A stretch of 41,539 nt of DNA from a virus. The notes beneath the pieces are model-generated. The model did not search any database. It was not told the DNA's origin and saw nothing but the letters and a program-made list of their open reading frames with translations. Location of the stretch: positions 1-41,539 of the IMG/VR virus record IMGVR_UViG_3300040801_002695, one strand, 5' to 3'. Below, piece after piece: positions 3,290-39,989 of the stretch. The position numbers and the translations under genes are program-made. Positions within the stretch are counted from its first letter, which is position 1. The number at the start of each line of letters is the position of its first letter.

Positions 3290-3378
3290 CAGATCCCCTT
3301 CCTCAGCCCGAGCACAACGACGACCGTCGCCCAGCCCATGCAGTACGCGAATCGCAGCGCAGTCCGTGCGTGTCTCAT
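3289..3378 (-). CDS. 29-residue single-membrane-span peptide
   Basis: MRHARTALRFAYCMGW then ATVVVVLGLRKGI: a basic N-terminus, one short hydrophobic span and a basic end. Although tiny, it has a strong ribosome site (GGAGG, seven bases before ATG 3378), an ATGA overlap with the upstream DUF5131 gene and a TGATG overlap with the next gene. It may insert in the inner membrane or simply pass ribosomes on by coupling. Confidence 0.5.
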   Translation of the reverse strand: MRHARTALRFAYCMGWATVVVVLGLRKGI

Positions 3379-4553
3379 GCCGTCGCCTCCTGATTCGGGA
3401 ACTCCCGCCGTCTCAGATTCTCGGGCCACTCGTCCGGGTCGCCGCCCTTGCGGTCGTTCGGCTCCATGCGCGAGCCCTCGGGCGTGCCGTCGCCGTACCA
3501 TCCAGGGTCATACGGCCATGCCCCGAGCTGCTTCACGAACACTGGCACGCCGGCGTCATCGCACTGGCGGATGATTGATCGGATCCAATCGACGTCGCAC
3601 GGTCGAGCGCCCGGCCCCGACTCGCCGCCGACGATCACCCAGTCGACCGCCGGCAGGCACTCGAACTCACGCAGGCGAATCCCCAGCATCGAACCATCGG
3701 TCGCTTTCACCGACAGCGCCCCGTGGTGATTTCCGGTCGCGCGATACACGCCGGGGCTCGCTGTCGTGCCGCTGAACGGAAAATCGGATCGCACTTCCCG
3801 CGGCAGCCGCACCCATCGACTCGGCCATCGCGGGCAGCATTCGCATTTCGCACTTTGCAATCCGAGATCCACCGGCCCCAGCAGCGGCTCCATGCTCAGG
3901 AACCGCACGGCCGCCGGGCAGCGGAGCAGATGCGGGATCCGCTCATCGGCCGCGGCCTGATCCTCGACGCTCGTGCCGAGCCACACGTTGGGGAGGGGTG
4001 TGCCCGCCTGCGCCTCGGTAATGCGCCGGAGCCCGCTTCCAGCAAGGCGCGCTCGTTCTAGTTCCGCAGTCGTGGCGTTGGGCGGATCATCGCCCGCCGC
4101 CTCGTACTTTGCTCTGTGGACGAACTCGACATCTTCCCATACGAACGGACGGTCGTCATCGTTCAGGTACTCCGCCATCCGCTCCGGCCGCTTCGTGAGG
4201 ATCATGTAGGTGATGTGGGGCGTCAGCGCCATCACCGCGAACACCCGGTCGATGAACTCAAACGGGACGCCCGGGTGAAAGAGGTCGCTCATGCTGTTCA
4301 CGAACACGCGGCGTGGCTTCCGCCAACGGAGGGGGGTCTCGAGCCGGTCTTCGTGGCATCGGACCTCGCCGTTGAAGTGACGATCGCCCTTGCCGTTTAG
4401 CACGGTCAGCCCGGCGTACTCGTCCTGCCCCATGTGCTCCAGGCGGTGCGACTGGCGAACCGCGTAGCAGTGGTCGCAGCCGGAAGAAACGCGGGAGCAC
4501 CCGGTGACGGGGTTCCACACCTCATCGCTCCATTCGATCTTCGTGGCGGTCAT
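3375..4553 (-). CDS. DUF5131 / phage Gp37-Gp68 family protein
   Basis: A 392-residue protein with the hallmarks of the Gp37/Gp68 (DUF5131) family: N-terminal TKIEWSD, then WNPVTGC and GCDHCYA giving a C-x(n)-C-x2-C cluster (about residues 18-29), then FVNSMSDLFHPGVP, TKRPERM, NVWLGTSVEDQ, FLSMEPLLGP and WVIVGGESGPGARP. The family has a radical-SAM-like fold signature and is common in phages and mobile elements; its reaction is not established to my knowledge. There is an extra loop with CECCPRW near the middle. It starts at ATG 4553, coupled by ATGA to an 18-codon leader ORF. Confidence 0.9.
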   Translation of the reverse strand: MTATKIEWSDEVWNPVTGCSRVSSGCDHCYAVRQSHRLEHMGQDEYAGLTVLNGKGDRHFNGEVRCHEDRLETPLRWRKPRRVFVNSMSDLFHPGVPFEFIDRVFAVMALTPHITYMILTKRPERMAEYLNDDDRPFVWEDVEFVHRAKYEAAGDDPPNATTAELERARLAGSGLRRITEAQAGTPLPNVWLGTSVEDQAAADERIPHLLRCPAAVRFLSMEPLLGPVDLGLQSAKCECCPRWPSRWVRLPREVRSDFPFSGTTASPGVYRATGNHHGALSVKATDGSMLGIRLREFECLPAVDWVIVGGESGPGARPCDVDWIRSIIRQCDDAGVPVFVKQLGAWPYDPGWYGDGTPEGSRMEPNDRKGGDPDEWPENLRRREFPNQEATA

Positions 4554-4606
4554 GACGCCTCCTCTGATTTGATTTGCCGCCACTCTTCCGGCGTCAGTTC
4601 ACTCAT
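4550..4606 (-). CDS. 18-residue leader ORF coupled to the DUF5131 gene
   Basis: ATG 4606 has a good ribosome site (GAGGTG, five bases upstream). It encodes MSELTPEEWRQIKSEEAS, and its TGA overlaps the next ATG as ATGA. The DUF5131 start lies 7 bases after a GGAGG that is itself inside this leader. It is probably a translational-coupling peptide. It may also be a small functional protein. Confidence 0.45.
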   Translation of the reverse strand: MSELTPEEWRQIKSEEAS

Positions 4607-6754: not shown

Positions 6755-6782
6755 CGTTTCCGGGCTCATGAGCCCAAAAACG
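6755..6782. repeat. Inverted repeat next to the tRNA half
   Basis: A 14-bp perfect palindrome, GGGCTCATGAGCCC (6762-6775), flanked by CGTTT (6755-6759) and AAACG (6778-6782), forms an extended stem with a small internal loop. It stands where the 3' half of the tRNA would otherwise follow. It lacks a following T-run in either orientation, so I do not call it a terminator. It may be a recombinase or accessory-factor site. Confidence 0.45.
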
Positions 6783-6799
6783 CCCTTACCCATACGGAT

Positions 6800-6837
6800 T
6801 AGGAAACCGGCGCTCTGTCCGACTGAGCTACGGGCGC
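6800..6837 (-). other. Candidate attP: 5' half of a tRNA-Arg(CCU) gene
   Basis: Reading the minus strand from 6837: acceptor 5' strand GCGCCCG, then TA, D-stem GCTC, loop AGTCGGACA, GAGC, then CCGGT and the anticodon loop TTCCTAA (CCU). After the loop the sequence stops resembling a tRNA: the expected ACCGG is TCCGT and no T-arm follows. It lies 125 bases upstream of the integrase start and is divergent from it. This is the layout of an attachment core taken from a host tRNA gene, with identity ending at the anticodon loop. Carrying the 5' half is less common than carrying the 3' half. Confidence 0.65.
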
Positions 6838-6857
6838 AAACGATCGAACGAGAACAC

Positions 6858-6888
6858 TTTACCGCAACCCGACCGATCCGTCTACAAT
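6858..6888 (+). promoter_or_regulatory. Candidate integrase promoter
   Basis: TACAAT (6883-6888, five of six to the sigma-70 -10 box), preceded at 19 bp by TTTACC (6858-6863, four of six). The predicted transcript starts near 6895, about 65 bases before the integrase ATG. The spacing is long, so the -35 assignment is tentative. Confidence 0.4.
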
Positions 6889-6961
6889 GCCGACGACACC
6901 CGGCCCGACACCTGCCGAGAATCCGGCCCACTCCGCGATCGGTCCCAGTGAGGAGCTTGAC

Positions 6962-8248
6962 ATGGCCCAGAATCATACCAGACGCGCAAAGCCCCAGCGG
7001 CCAAAGGCTTTCGAGAGGCTCGGAATCTGGGCCCACGGAAACGGCCAGTGGATGACGAAGATCCGCGGACGACACCAGAGTTTGGGCGTCTGGGACACCC
7101 CACAGGACGTCGTGATCAACAAGTATCACCGGCTGATGGGCGCCGTCGCCGAAGGCCGCGACCTCTCCGTCATCAACCTCGCGGACATCAACGTCCGCGA
7201 CCTCTTCGAGGAGTTCATCCAGCGGTGCATCGCCCGCCGCGACGCCGGGGAGATGCGCAACTCCACCCTCCGCGACTACGTCGATTTCGCCAACTTCGCC
7301 GCCGGGGCGCTCGGCCCCGACCGGCTCGCCGACGACCTCACCCGCCTGGACTTTGAGGACCTCCGCCGGCGGATCGCCAAGCGATGGGGCGTCACCCGCC
7401 GCGGGAAGTGCATCGGATTCGTCCGCCAGGTGTTCCGCTGGGGATTCGAGGACGCCGAGCTGCTCGTCCGCCCGGCCCAGATCCCCCCCAGCTTCCGGAA
7501 GCCGGAGAAGCGGCTCTACCGCAAGGTCAAGCATGACCGCGGACCGCTGCTCTTCACGCCGGCGGAGATCGGCCGCCTGCTCCAGGCCGCGCCGCTGCAG
7601 ATCAAGGCCATGATCATGGTCGGTCTCAACGCCGCCTACACCCAGGCCGACTGCTCCGAGCTCCCGGCCGACCGCGTGGACCTCGAGCACCGCCGGATCC
7701 ACTGGCCGAGGCCGAAGACGGAGATCGATCGCGTGGCCCCGCTCTGGCCGGAGACGGCCATGGTGCTGCGCGAGGTCATGGATCGCCGAGCGCCGGAGCG
7801 GGCGTCGGATGATCATCGCCACCTGCTCTTCTTGACCCAGAACCTCCGCCAGCCGTGGGTCCGCGAGGTCTTCGGCCGCCGCAACGGCCATGCCTCCACC
7901 CGCCGCGTCGATTCGGTCGGCCTGCTCTTCGGCCGCCTGAAGCGCGACCTCGGCATCTCCAAGAGCGGCCACGGCTTCGCGGTGCTCCGGAAGCAGTTCA
8001 GGACAATCGCCGACGAGACGAACGACATCCCCGCGATCGACCTCATCATGGGCCACGCGGGCGATCGCACCATGGGCGATCAGTACCGGCAGTCCATCGA
8101 GTTCGAGAGGCTGGAGGCGGTCGTGGAGCATGTTCGCGCGTCGATCCTTCCCGAGGCCGCGAAGGCCTCGCCTTGGCTGCGTGGTCTCAACCCGGAGTTG
8201 GTTCCGGCTCAGGAAGCGGAGGCACCGTCAGGCGGCACCAGCGCTTGA
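6962..8248 (+). CDS. int: Tyrosine recombinase (phage integrase)
   Basis: A 428-residue site-specific recombinase. Start chosen at ATG 6962, seven bases after GAGGAG; an in-frame ATG at 6887 lacks such a site. An N-terminal core-binding region (about 75-170) precedes the catalytic domain (195-400). Visible catalytic elements are the WPRPKT lysine box (about 248-253), VLRKQFRT with Arg 343, LIMGH with His 365 and the nucleophile candidate Tyr 375 in DQYRQSI. The first Arg box reads GLNAAYTQADCSEL with no arginine, and box II has AVLR instead of HxLR. I recall this divergence from planctomycete integrases. It sits beside the tRNA-derived site, and its 3' end overlaps a convergent gene by 62 bases. 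Confidence 0.9.
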   Translation: MAQNHTRRAKPQRPKAFERLGIWAHGNGQWMTKIRGRHQSLGVWDTPQDVVINKYHRLMGAVAEGRDLSVINLADINVRDLFEEFIQRCIARRDAGEMRNSTLRDYVDFANFAAGALGPDRLADDLTRLDFEDLRRRIAKRWGVTRRGKCIGFVRQVFRWGFEDAELLVRPAQIPPSFRKPEKRLYRKVKHDRGPLLFTPAEIGRLLQAAPLQIKAMIMVGLNAAYTQADCSELPADRVDLEHRRIHWPRPKTEIDRVAPLWPETAMVLREVMDRRAPERASDDHRHLLFLTQNLRQPWVREVFGRRNGHASTRRVDSVGLLFGRLKRDLGISKSGHGFAVLRKQFRTIADETNDIPAIDLIMGHAGDRTMGDQYRQSIEFERLEAVVEHVRASILPEAAKASPWLRGLNPELVPAQEAEAPSGGTSA

Positions 8249-8513: not shown

Positions 8514-8831
8514 TCACACCCTCAGTGCTCGTTCCTTCACCGATCGCCCGCCACGCGCGAGCCGTCGCCTCTTCTGCTCCTCCTGGCTGATCCCGGTCGA
8601 GCGGGCCTCCATGAACCGCTGCAGCTCTGACGCGTTCACACGAAGGCGGCGGCGCTGGCCCTTCCCCTTGCCCGTCGAGATGTCGAAGGCGGCCAGCAGC
8701 CGCTGATCGATCCAATCCTCCACCGTCCGCCGGCTGACGCCGCAGATGGTGGCGACTTCGTCCAGCGTCAAGACCTCGTCGTTGAGAATCAGCCGGCCTG
8801 CTGCGCGGGCTTCTTCTCTCGCCCGAGCCAT
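8514..8831 (-). CDS. Excisionase-like DNA-binding protein (MerR/HTH_17 type)
   Basis: A 105-residue protein. Residues 20-75 form a winged helix-turn-helix of the excisionase/HTH_17 kind: VLTLDEVATICGVSRRTVED, then WIDQRLLAAFDI, with a basic wing KGKGQRRRLRV and NASELQRFMEAR closing the domain. Start chosen at ATG 8831. The frame is open upstream but overlaps csrA throughout. Its position beside int suggests it directs excision. A transcriptional regulator is the alternative. It overlaps the end of csrA by 43 bases, so the two are translationally linked. Confidence 0.75.
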   Translation of the reverse strand: MARAREEARAAGRLILNDEVLTLDEVATICGVSRRTVEDWIDQRLLAAFDISTGKGKGQRRRLRVNASELQRFMEARSTGISQEEQKRRRLARGGRSVKERALRV

Positions 8832-8986
8832 TCCGGCCTTGCGATCGCCACCCCCTCCGGCGCCGTCAACCCGAGCTTCACCCGGTCGCCCTTGATCTCC
8901 AGCACCTGCAGGCGGACTTCCACCGCCTGAGCCCCCGCGTGCCGCATGACGATCAGCTCGTCCTTGCGCCTCGTCAGTACCAGCAT
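8789..8986 (-). CDS. csrA: CsrA-family translational regulator
   Basis: A 65-residue CsrA homologue: MLVLTRRKDELIVM at the N-terminus (RNA-binding strand beta-1, with Leu4 and Arg6 retained), LQVLEIKGDRVKLGLTAPEG in the middle, and VAIARP, where the Arg aligns with the key RNA-contacting Arg44 of bacterial CsrA. There is a small insertion (HAGAQAVE) after beta-1. CsrA dimers bind GGA in hairpin loops or leaders and alter translation or RNA stability. The gene's own leader has AAGGAC about ten bases before the start, the sort of site CsrA uses to control itself. Its neighbours are a tRNA and a long hairpin-rich RNA candidate. Confidence 0.9.
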   Translation of the reverse strand: MLVLTRRKDELIVMRHAGAQAVEVRLQVLEIKGDRVKLGLTAPEGVAIARPEWLGREKKPAQQAG

Positions 8987-9045: not shown

Positions 9046-9119
9046 TGGCAGCGGCAGGATTCGAACCTGCGACCTGGTGGTTATGAGCCACCCGAGATTG
9101 CCCACTTCTCCACGCTGCT
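9046..9119 (-). tRNA. tRNA(CAU), initiator-like
   Basis: A complete 74-nt cloverleaf on the minus strand: acceptor AGCAGCG/CGCTGCC with discriminator A, D-stem GAGA/TCTC with a nine-base loop, anticodon stem GGTGG/CCACC with loop CTCATAA, variable AGGTC, T-stem GCAGG/CCTGC with loop TTCGAAT. CCA is not encoded. Two features point to an initiator: the first acceptor pair is mismatched (A1-C72) and the D-stem has A11:U24. The anticodon stem lacks the usual third G-C pair (it has U29-A41). It could instead be an elongator Met or a tRNA-Ile2 precursor. Confidence 0.85.
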
Positions 9120-9120
9120 C

Positions 9121-9640
9121 GAGGAAACGCCCCAGCGCCCATGGCTTCGGAGCCGCTGGGGCGTGAAGGAAGCAATACGACGCCGGGCCTGATGGACAGA
9201 CGGAGGGGGCCCGGCGCCGCGAGGTTGTCAAAGCGCCCGGCCGGCTGGGTCTGGTGGCGCGCCGGCCGGGCAGAGGGGAGGGGGTTCGCCGAATGCCCGG
9301 GCTGCGCCGGGGGACGCAGCCGCGGGCCACAAGGAGCCCCGCGCTCCGACAACGCGGGTCCGAAGAGAGTCTCAAAAACGCCGGCGGCCCCGCACCCGAT
9401 CGGACCGCCGGCACCATGTGCGCCCTGGCCGGCAACCGAGCCGGCCAACTCAGAGGAGGAAAAGGACGGCGACGGGTGGAACCGCGACGCCGCCCAGCGG
9501 GTGGGAATCACGCCCTCGGCCTGGGCGTCGTCCCAGCAGGAAGAATGGCCACCATAGGCCACGAGCCCATGGTGGCTCTCATGCCGGCCGCAATCAGGTC
9601 CGCCAAGAACATCGTGGTCGATGTCGATGCGGCCGGTCCA
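9121..9640 (-). ncRNA. Candidate large structured RNA (tandem hairpin array)
   Basis: About 520 bases with no credible protein gene and at least eleven consecutive inverted repeats. Arms: 9127-9137/9154-9164 (11 bp), 9181-9189/9208-9216 (9), 9235-9245/9261-9271 (11), 9295-9306/9315-9327 (12, one bulge), 9338-9343/9353-9358 (6), 9380-9387/9405-9412 (8), 9426-9433/9440-9447 (8), 9485-9497/9521-9530 (10, with a three-base bulge), 9548-9555/9569-9576 (8), 9584-9591/9629-9636 (8), with 9609-9614/9619-9624 nested inside the last. Strand is inferred from the adjacent minus-strand tRNA and csrA. The setting resembles GOLLD and ROOL RNAs of phages, but no family motif was identified. Confidence 0.6.
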
Positions 9641-9761: not shown

Positions 9762-10067
9762 TCAGGCGGCATGGCCTCCATCGCCCGCTCCAACGGGCGA
9801 TTCATCTCGAGTCCCAGTCACAGGAACGCCCGTCGTCGCGGGCGGGAATGCCGGTGCAGCATGGATCGACGCGGCGCCGGTGGTCTGATGGAGCGAGGTC
9901 ATCTCCTCCTGAGTGAGACGCTCGGTGATCAGCTCGGCGGCGGTCTTCGCAAGTGCCTGCTTGGTCTCCCGCCCGCGCCGCTCGTGCGCCGCCGCGATTC
10001 GGCGGATGACGTGCGGGTCGCGAATGGTGATTTCGGCTGGCATCGTTTGGCGTAGCTCTTCGCTCAT
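9762..10067 (-). CDS. Ribbon-helix-helix-like regulator / VapB-like antitoxin homologue
   Basis: A 101-residue product. The N-terminal 55 residues (ITIRDPHVIRRIAAAHERRG, then TKQALAKTAAELITERL) look like a short beta-strand followed by two helices, as in VapB-like and other ribbon-helix-helix DNA-binding proteins. The remaining 45 residues are low-complexity Ala/Thr/Pro/Gly. No toxin gene stands beside it, so it is more likely a phage regulator than half of a toxin-antitoxin pair. It is divergent from the repressor, with 68 bases between the starts. A hairpin (9780-9801, 8-bp arms) lies inside its 3' end. The start could also be the internal ATG at 10043. Confidence 0.6.
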   Translation of the reverse strand: MSEELRQTMPAEITIRDPHVIRRIAAAHERRGRETKQALAKTAAELITERLTQEEMTSLHQTTGAASIHAAPAFPPATTGVPVTGTRDESPVGAGDGGHAA

Positions 10068-10135
10068 GCTGGTAGCCCAGTTTGACTGAAGATTCGGCCC
10101 CGTCAAGGCGTCCACGCCACAAAAACGAGGTAAAA
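10068..10135. promoter_or_regulatory. Divergent intergenic control region of repressor and RHH gene
   Basis: Contains TTGAC (10082-10086) and GTCAA (10102-10106) as arms 15 bases apart, and the tight inverted repeat GGCGT-CC-ACGCC (10107-10118). Each TTGAC could serve as a -35 box in one direction, but I see no good -10 box. The 10-mer TGGCGTGGAC on the minus strand (10110-10119) also occurs at 6668-6677, upstream of the leftward operon. Confidence 0.4.
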
Positions 10136-10861
10136 ATGATCCGTTCTGCGTCGAACTGCGCCGCCGATCGTGCGCAAGTGGCAACCGTGCACAGGCTTGG
10201 ACAAATAGTGAGGATGGCGAGGGGCTTGCGAAATTGGTCGCAGGATCGCCTTTCCGAGGAGACCGCCGACCCACAGTTCGGTGGACGGCCCGTGAGCAAA
10301 GCCACGATTCAGGGGCTGGAGACCGGGCGCGTCCGGAATCCCAACACATCGACCTCCATGCGGCTCCTCCGGGCGCTCGGCTACTCCAGCGAGCAGCAGG
10401 CGGCCGAGGCTCTCGGGATGGACGAATTGACAAAGGCATCGAGCCCCGGGCGGGGGATCCCTATACTGGGATTCGTGCCAGAAGACGTAGGCCAACGCCA
10501 CGCGGCCGCACACATCCCACGGGTGCTGCTGCCGACGATCGACGATGACGACGCCTACGCGTTCGTGATCCAAGATGATCGGATGGAGCCCAGGTATCCG
10601 CGTGGAAGCGTGGTGATCGCGTCTCCCGGATCCGACGTCCGCAGCGGCATGTACTGCACCGTCCGCTACCGGCACGGCCGCGAAACGCACCACGCCGTCG
10701 CGCGGGTCTTCGAGCTCGGCGGCGGGCAGATCAGCCTCGCATGGGAGAAGACCGGCGAGACGCTGACCATCCGCCGGATTGACCTGGTGGCTCACCATCC
10801 GATCATCGCGACGCTGCGTCCCGATCCGCAGGCCGAGCAGCTCCGAGGAGGCACGAGATGA
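10136..10861 (+). CDS. CI-like repressor: XRE helix-turn-helix plus degenerate S24 peptidase domain
   Basis: A 241-residue lysogeny regulator. Start at ATG 10136 with CGAGG five bases upstream. Residues 19-80 form a Cro/CI helix-turn-helix (MARGLRNWSQDRLSEE, KATIQGLETGRVRNP). The C-terminal half has the fold signature of LexA/CI dimerisation domains: FVIQDDRMEPRYPRGSVVIA, then VRSGMYCTVRYRHG. The nucleophile position normally Ser in DSMEP is Arg, the catalytic Lys position reads Ala (AVARVF), and no Ala-Gly cleavage site is seen near GIPILGFVPED. It should dimerise and bind operators but not self-cleave. It is followed by an ATGA-coupled membrane protein. Confidence 0.85.
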   Translation: MIRSASNCAADRAQVATVHRLGQIVRMARGLRNWSQDRLSEETADPQFGGRPVSKATIQGLETGRVRNPNTSTSMRLLRALGYSSEQQAAEALGMDELTKASSPGRGIPILGFVPEDVGQRHAAAHIPRVLLPTIDDDDAYAFVIQDDRMEPRYPRGSVVIASPGSDVRSGMYCTVRYRHGRETHHAVARVFELGGGQISLAWEKTGETLTIRRIDLVAHHPIIATLRPDPQAEQLRGGTR

Positions 10862-39108: not shown

Positions 39109-39989
39109 GCGAATAGGCCGCCTTCCTGCCGGGTGTTGAGGGGTCCATTGACGAGGAGGACCTCGGTGACGCGGACGTCGCTCTTCCCTCGTGAGCCGGA
39201 CGATGCCATCGCCTTCGATACTTCAATCTCTCGCCGCTTCCAGCGGTCGACGGGGTAGAGGGTGTTGAGAAGGGGATGCTGGTAGTAGCTGACGACGACG
39301 CGGGCCTGCCGGAACCGGCTGAGGCTCTCGGCAAGGCGTTCGTGGTCGCCTTCTCTGAGCTTGTGCAGGTACTTCGCCCCCTTCACGAGGTATGGGGGAT
39401 CGACGTAGATGGCGGCTCCCGGGGCATCCTCGATGCGCTCGAGCAGCTCGAAGGCGTCCATCGTGAGGGCTGTGACGTGGCGGAGGCGGCGTCGCCATGC
39501 CGGGATGGATCGGATGGCGTTGTGGAAGCGGCGAGCGGCGTGGCCGCCGTTGTGCGTGTACCTGGCGCAGTAGTGGTTGTCGTAGTTGCTGCATCCAGCG
39601 ACGCCATTCCGCCCAAGCCATGCGGCGAGGAAGTAGGCCTCGGCGCGGTCGAGGTCCGGGGCGGCCGCCGGCGTCCAGTCGCGTCGGATCTCCTCAGCCG
39701 CGGCCGCGTGGATCTGCTGCGCCATGATGGTCCGGCGGAGGCGGCGATAGAGCATGGGGCCGAGGGTCCGGTCCTGCACGACCCGGGCGAGATTGATGAG
39801 GTCGCCGTGCAGGTCGTTGACGGTCTCCATCGACGCCGCCGGCTTGGCGAGCAGCACGGCCATCGAGCCGCAGAACGGCTCCCAGTAGCTTCGGTGGTCG
39901 CCGAGCTCCTCGATGATCGTTCGAGCGAGGTTGCGCTTGGCGCCGAACCATGGCGAGAGGGCTTTGATGGGCATGTCCGCCGACGTCAT
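39105..39989 (-). CDS. dam: Dam-type N6-adenine DNA methyltransferase (294 aa)
   Basis: Typical D12/Dam-class enzyme: SPWFGAKRNLARTIIEELGD, motif I WEPFCGSMAVLLAKPAAS with ND for AdoMet contact, catalytic motif IV IYVDPPYL (about residue 195) and KYLHKLREGDHERLAESLSR. It transfers a methyl group to adenine N6 in phage or host DNA, which may protect from restriction or mark replication state. The start at ATG 39989 overlaps the upstream gene as ATGA. An alternative start is five codons later. Confidence 0.85.
   Translation of the reverse strand: MTSADMPIKALSPWFGAKRNLARTIIEELGDHRSYWEPFCGSMAVLLAKPAASMETVNDLHGDLINLARVVQDRTLGPMLYRRLRRTIMAQQIHAAAAEEIRRDWTPAAAPDLDRAEAYFLAAWLGRNGVAGCSNYDNHYCARYTHNGGHAARRFHNAIRSIPAWRRRLRHVTALTMDAFELLERIEDAPGAAIYVDPPYLVKGAKYLHKLREGDHERLAESLSRFRQARVVVSYYQHPLLNTLYPVDRWKRREIEVSKAMASSGSRGKSDVRVTEVLLVNGPLNTRQEGGLFA

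Follow-up and report, generated by a model that had tools for sequence, protein, structure and literature searches.

The window analysed here, an IMG/VR virus record taken at its full length of 41,539 bases, belongs to a temperate tailed phage, recognizable by an integrase, a CI/S24-type repressor, a lambda-type portal, a capsid and an extended block of structural genes that runs leftward. Between positions 9121 and 9640 this phage harbours an array of about ten abutting stem-loops, the inverted repeats of which are packed end to end from 9127 to 9636. On the minus strand, the array is preceded by a small open reading frame with a weakly coding-like composition (9762-10070), and directly followed by a phage-borne tRNA-Met (CAT) (9046-9119), by csrA (8789-8986), by the gene of an excisionase-like HTH_17 protein (8514-8834) and by another small open reading frame. 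This minus-strand run of genes is flanked by two plus-strand genes, the convergent tyrosine integrase (6887-8248) and the divergent CI-like HTH/S24 repressor (10214-10861). The csrA product matches PF02599 with 49 bits, for a cut-off of 27, and retains in the alignment the RNA-contact residues L4 and R6 together with the conserved arginine of the helix start (R50); a search with the HTH_17 protein yielded one distant match. A preliminary sequence-only reading had placed the array directly against both a tRNA and csrA. The tRNA is indeed 7 nt away, but csrA lies beyond it.

With respect to the host, relatives of the terminase occur in Planctomycetota genomes at 40-48% identity, and one of these genomes holds relatives of the terminase, the portal and the capsid together. 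Homologous integrases are similarly present in Planctomycetota, and all seven that were examined adjoin a host tRNA. Judging from these relatives, the host of the phage is very probably a planctomycete. The host tRNAs lie 40-330 bp off the seven integrases, with their 5' side facing the integrase, which suggests that integration would take place at the anticodon region, the phage bearing the 5' half of the tRNA instead of the usual 3' end. A degraded tRNA occurs in the phage on the minus strand at 6769-6838, about 50 nt before the start of the integrase; it reaches 25.4 bits with the Rfam tRNA model, below the cut-off, and its 5' half (positions about 4-44) resembles planctomycete tRNA-Arg/Lys. 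The region 6769-6887, which includes this tRNA half beside the integrase, is probably attP and is located away from the array.

The hairpins of the array, designated HK to HA from the tRNA side, differ in the length and the regularity of their stems. The first of them, HK (9127-9164), consists of 11 perfectly paired bp out of 11 and lies 7 nt from the 5' end of the tRNA. It is followed by HJ (9178-9219), in which 11 of 12 bp are paired, by HI (9235-9271), another perfect stem of 11/11 bp, by HH (9294-9327), with a bulged GCCCG-CGGCTGCG stem, and by HG (9335-9362), built on a CCCGCG core that forms 6 bp at 9338-9358. HF (9380-9412) pairs 10 of 11 bp and is followed on the minus strand by GTTTTTG, and HE (9426-9447) is a perfect stem of 8/8 bp closed by a loop of 6 nt. 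The stretch 9467-9532 contains two mutually exclusive hairpins, HD (9467-9491), with the minus-strand tail TCCTTTTC, and HC (9486-9532). Finally, HB (9548-9576) pairs 11 of 12 bp and looks like a terminator on the minus strand, and HA (9584-9636) comprises an outer stem of 9/9 bp with further pairing inside it. The single mismatch of the three long stems HJ, HF and HB is a transition which, in all three, gives A.C on the plus strand and G.U on the minus strand. The eleven hairpins with long perfect arms that had been announced from the sequence are thus reduced to about ten non-overlapping ones, eleven being reached only if both competing hairpins are counted, and several stems are truly perfect whereas three carry the A.C mismatch on the plus strand.

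The excess of pairing has been measured by counting perfect Watson-Crick stems with a loop of at most 30 nt in the array and in 200 shuffled versions of these 520 nt with preserved dinucleotide composition. Six stems of at least 8 bp were found, against 0.6 +/- 0.8 in the shuffles (maximum 3 in any of the 200), and eight stems of at least 7 bp, against 1.7 +/- 1.1. In addition, 9121-9640 ranks as the most hairpin-dense stretch of 520 nt in the whole 41.5 kb, with no other stretch near it, and none of 9,288 windows from 2.53 Mb of fetched related phage and planctomycete DNA matches its density. Local folding, with a pairing span limited to 60 nt, gives z values of -4.65 for the plus and -5.55 for the minus strand, whereas folding of the RNA over its whole length gives -2.8 and -3.2, respectively. 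The hairpin array is therefore real and beyond chance, and GC content provides no explanation for it, as the sequence-only reading had maintained. Its assertion that the stretch contains no protein-like reading frame is borne out as well, since all six frames and every listed open reading frame score below zero against the codon usage of the phage itself, the 20 annotated phage genes taken as a control all being positive (+0.13 to +0.56 bits per codon).

Both GOLLD and ROOL RNAs often occur near tRNAs in phages (PMC12286853), and the array shares with them a non-coding, highly structured nature and a position beside a tRNA in a phage, so that the kinship with GOLLD, ROOL or OLE initially proposed was a reasonable lead. 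It has not survived the search with cmscan against Rfam 15, in which the tRNA was the only match at the gathering score; at E <= 5, the array stretch returned only the tRNA and sub-threshold chance matches to unrelated families. Apart from this missing covariance-model match, the array differs from GOLLD and ROOL in that it is not conserved in related phages, adjoins a single tRNA instead of a tRNA island, and consists of a simple string of separate short hairpins over about 520 nt rather than a pseudoknotted multi-junction fold, many GOLLD RNAs exceeding 800 nt. A divergent GOLLD, ROOL or other known large ornate RNA accordingly appears very improbable, and this reading is largely refuted. 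The array is an orphan candidate RNA, outside any known family.

Relatives were sought at different levels. The array returned tRNA matches or nothing from GenBank phages and plasmids. Exact-peptide scans of IMG/VR with the integrase, the terminase and the portal did not find a close relative of the phage, nor did the scan with the small open reading frame 9762-10070, and the scan with csrA found distant csrA genes only. An alignment-based terminase scan provided 260 relatives, of which 80 were kept, 50 records being searched for csrA and about 25 being read nearly whole. No comparable array occurs in the 80 terminase loci or in the about 25 related phage records read whole or largely, and the hairpin-dense spots encountered among these relatives correspond to coding sequence, to terminators of the usual kind between genes or, at locus L192, to operator-like palindromes in tandem. 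The array is similarly absent from 72 csrA-bearing viral loci, in which the csrA-adjacent hairpins inspected turned out to be ordinary terminators of AT-rich phages or coding sequence. A DNA search of 367 genomes, from the class to which the host of the relative G345 belongs, gave short chance matches with no array around them, mostly in coding genes. No homologue that could display covariation, i.e., compensatory change in the stems, was thus encountered, and the new class of RNA envisaged at first besides a divergent known one is a candidate only. The array also serves as a caution that an extreme hairpin density may exist without any conserved homologue.

No direct-repeat family occurs within the array and the hairpins are mutually unrelated in sequence. 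For lack of repeated units, readings as attC sites of an integron, as REP elements or as a CRISPR-like locus were ruled out. The resemblance to REP/BIME clusters is confined to the density of extragenic palindromes; the hairpins of the array have no consensus and occur neither elsewhere in the phage nor in the 367 genomes. A role at the level of DNA, in which extruded or single-stranded hairpins would be read by proteins during replication, packaging or recombination, could account for an excess that is equally strong when the array is folded as DNA (z -4.4) and is nearly symmetric between the strands. However, the hairpins lack the repeated recognition motif that is usual at origins and recombination sites, and the probable attP lies elsewhere, at the tRNA half 6769-6838 beside the integrase. 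A DNA element of this type must consequently be regarded as unlikely.

The explanation favoured here, tentatively and with a confidence short of even, is that the array forms an untranslated structured minus-strand leader or attenuator of an early operon comprising tRNA-Met and csrA. A leftward early operon would be transcribed from a divergent promoter near 10.07-10.2 kb, to give a transcript carrying successively the small open reading frame, the array, tRNA-Met, csrA and the HTH protein. The serial hairpins, some of them U-tailed and one pair (HC/HD) mutually exclusive, would slow or partly terminate transcription and protect a leader that is long and untranslated, and this pausing or partial termination would gate and delay the expression of tRNA-Met and csrA. 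The model starts from observed features, namely hairpins in excess, a stretch free of coding frames and the arrangement of the surrounding genes, to which it would add transcription of the minus strand and an attenuating or gating role.

Several features agree with such a leader, besides the hairpin excess and the absence of a coding frame. The gap of 7 nt between the last stem and the tRNA is too short to accommodate a promoter for the tRNA; unless they are silent, tRNA-Met and csrA should hence be expressed by minus-strand transcription that crosses the array. The single-transition mismatches are G.U on the minus strand in three cases out of three, and the local fold is slightly better on this strand, but the difference in fold energy between the strands is not significant (z -1.2). 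The 3' tails of the stems contain on average 3.1 T out of 8 on the minus strand, against 1.2 on the plus strand; two minus-strand stems were called terminator-like, and a TransTerm-style scan reported two candidates within the array on the minus strand and none on the plus strand. However, the array spacers contain 35% A and 33% G on the plus strand, and the U-richness of the minus-strand tails, of which only one scores strongly, does not go beyond what this spacer composition predicts and hence is not independent evidence for the strand. Also at odds with the leader model are a scan of the divergent region that found no sigma-70-like promoter, the excess of A over T in the plus strand of the array (skew +0.31), which points to the other strand, and the lack of a homologue, hence of covariation or positional conservation.

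The same U-rich minus-strand tails, such as the GTTTTTG that follows 9380 and the TCCTTTTC that follows 9467, lend themselves to a simpler reading, a tandem stack of intrinsic terminators. These would one after the other halt leftward transcription in the absence of an antiterminator, and the RNA would play no other part. Only one of the about ten hairpins passes a moderate tail score, the tails fit the composition of the spacers, and stems such as HE and HA lack a U tract, which makes a stack of this kind unlikely. In their location, with a putative promoter divergent from the repressor on one side and delayed genes on the other, the hairpins recall early-operon regions such as tR1 and tL1 of lambda with their antitermination, but their number is about ten where such regions have one or two, the U tracts are weak, and no nut-like repeat was seen. 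Should the array be only a leader or a terminator stack, a temperate phage would still provide an extreme example of a structured leader that is not translated.

The main rival to the leader model reads the other strand. A stand-alone plus-strand RNA, comparable to CsrB or RsmZ, would titrate the CsrA of the host or of the phage through unpaired GGA motifs exposed in purine-rich spacers. CsrA-family proteins recognize GGA exposed in the loops of hairpins, and RNAs that mimic such targets titrate them; phages are known to carry alleles of csrA (PMC7366521). On the plus strand of the array, 14 of the 15 GGA fall outside the stems, and the unpaired GGA amount to 14 for an expectation of 8.8 +/- 2.4 (p about 0.03). 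The excess is sharper for AGGA, with seven copies in unpaired segments for 2.1 expected (p about 0.003). Unpaired bases of the plus-strand MFE structure consist of 38% A and 31% G, and the A > T skew is that of a sense strand, A exceeding T in the sense strand of all 32 phage genes examined. Purine-rich unpaired parts are a usual property of structured RNAs. The adjacent csrA, with its RNA-contact residues retained, would offer a partner. In contrast, a total of 15 GGA is nothing unusual in this phage, where 520 nt contain 10.1 +/- 4.1 on average, and the motif is found in only about half of the loops. Furthermore, a plus-strand promoter would fall inside the tRNA of the opposite strand, no plus-strand terminator is present, and the other csrA-bearing phages lack such an array.

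The likeness to CsrB, CsrC, RsmY and RsmZ thus extends to the serial hairpins, the A/G-rich spacers, the unpaired GGA of the plus strand and the adjacent csrA, but the stems of the array are very GC-rich, the GGA excess is modest, transcription of the plus strand is putative and the CsrB/RsmZ families of Rfam are unmatched. A CsrA-titrating RNA is considered rather unlikely. Taken together, the evidence on the strand is split, read-through, G.U pairs and U tails pointing to the minus strand, and purine-rich spacers, skew and unpaired GGA to the plus strand.

A broader proposal is that phage CsrA and an adjacent multi-hairpin RNA unrelated to CsrB could form a regulatory pair, the RNA either titrating CsrA or gating csrA, and such a pair would possibly be the first in Planctomycetota and in phages. 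This proposal is unlikely at present. If the array does act as RNA, it would be an orphan large structured RNA with a direct link to csrA, in a host phylum that has received little study, and a single phage would combine the CsrA regulator with a structured RNA that controls or captures it.

Some observations concern the related phages themselves. Genes resembling csrA occur in the terminase-related IMG/VR phages G1130, G1138, G1143, G1149, G1150, G1153 and G1165, with E values from 2e-7 for the best to 0.004 for the weakest, and this recurrence indicates that phage-borne csrA may be common in the terminase-related group of planctomycete phages. In the distantly related G1165 (locus L154, 16812-17112; terminase identity 39%), a tRNA-Met adjoins csrA in the reverse order, csrA preceding the tRNA, without the array. 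Another related phage, G1129, contains at 7211-7283 (L192) near-perfect tandem copies of an operator-like palindrome of 20-21 bp, GGGCTAGACACGGTGTCTAG, and a hairpin with a perfect stem of 20 bp, GCCGCTGGGACAAAGTGCTA, separates the capsid gene from the next gene in a third one (G1159, about 39652-39696, at the junction of L160 and L161). Finally, the phage encodes at 3375-4583 a DUF5131 protein (291 bits) which is also carried by several related planctomycete phages.
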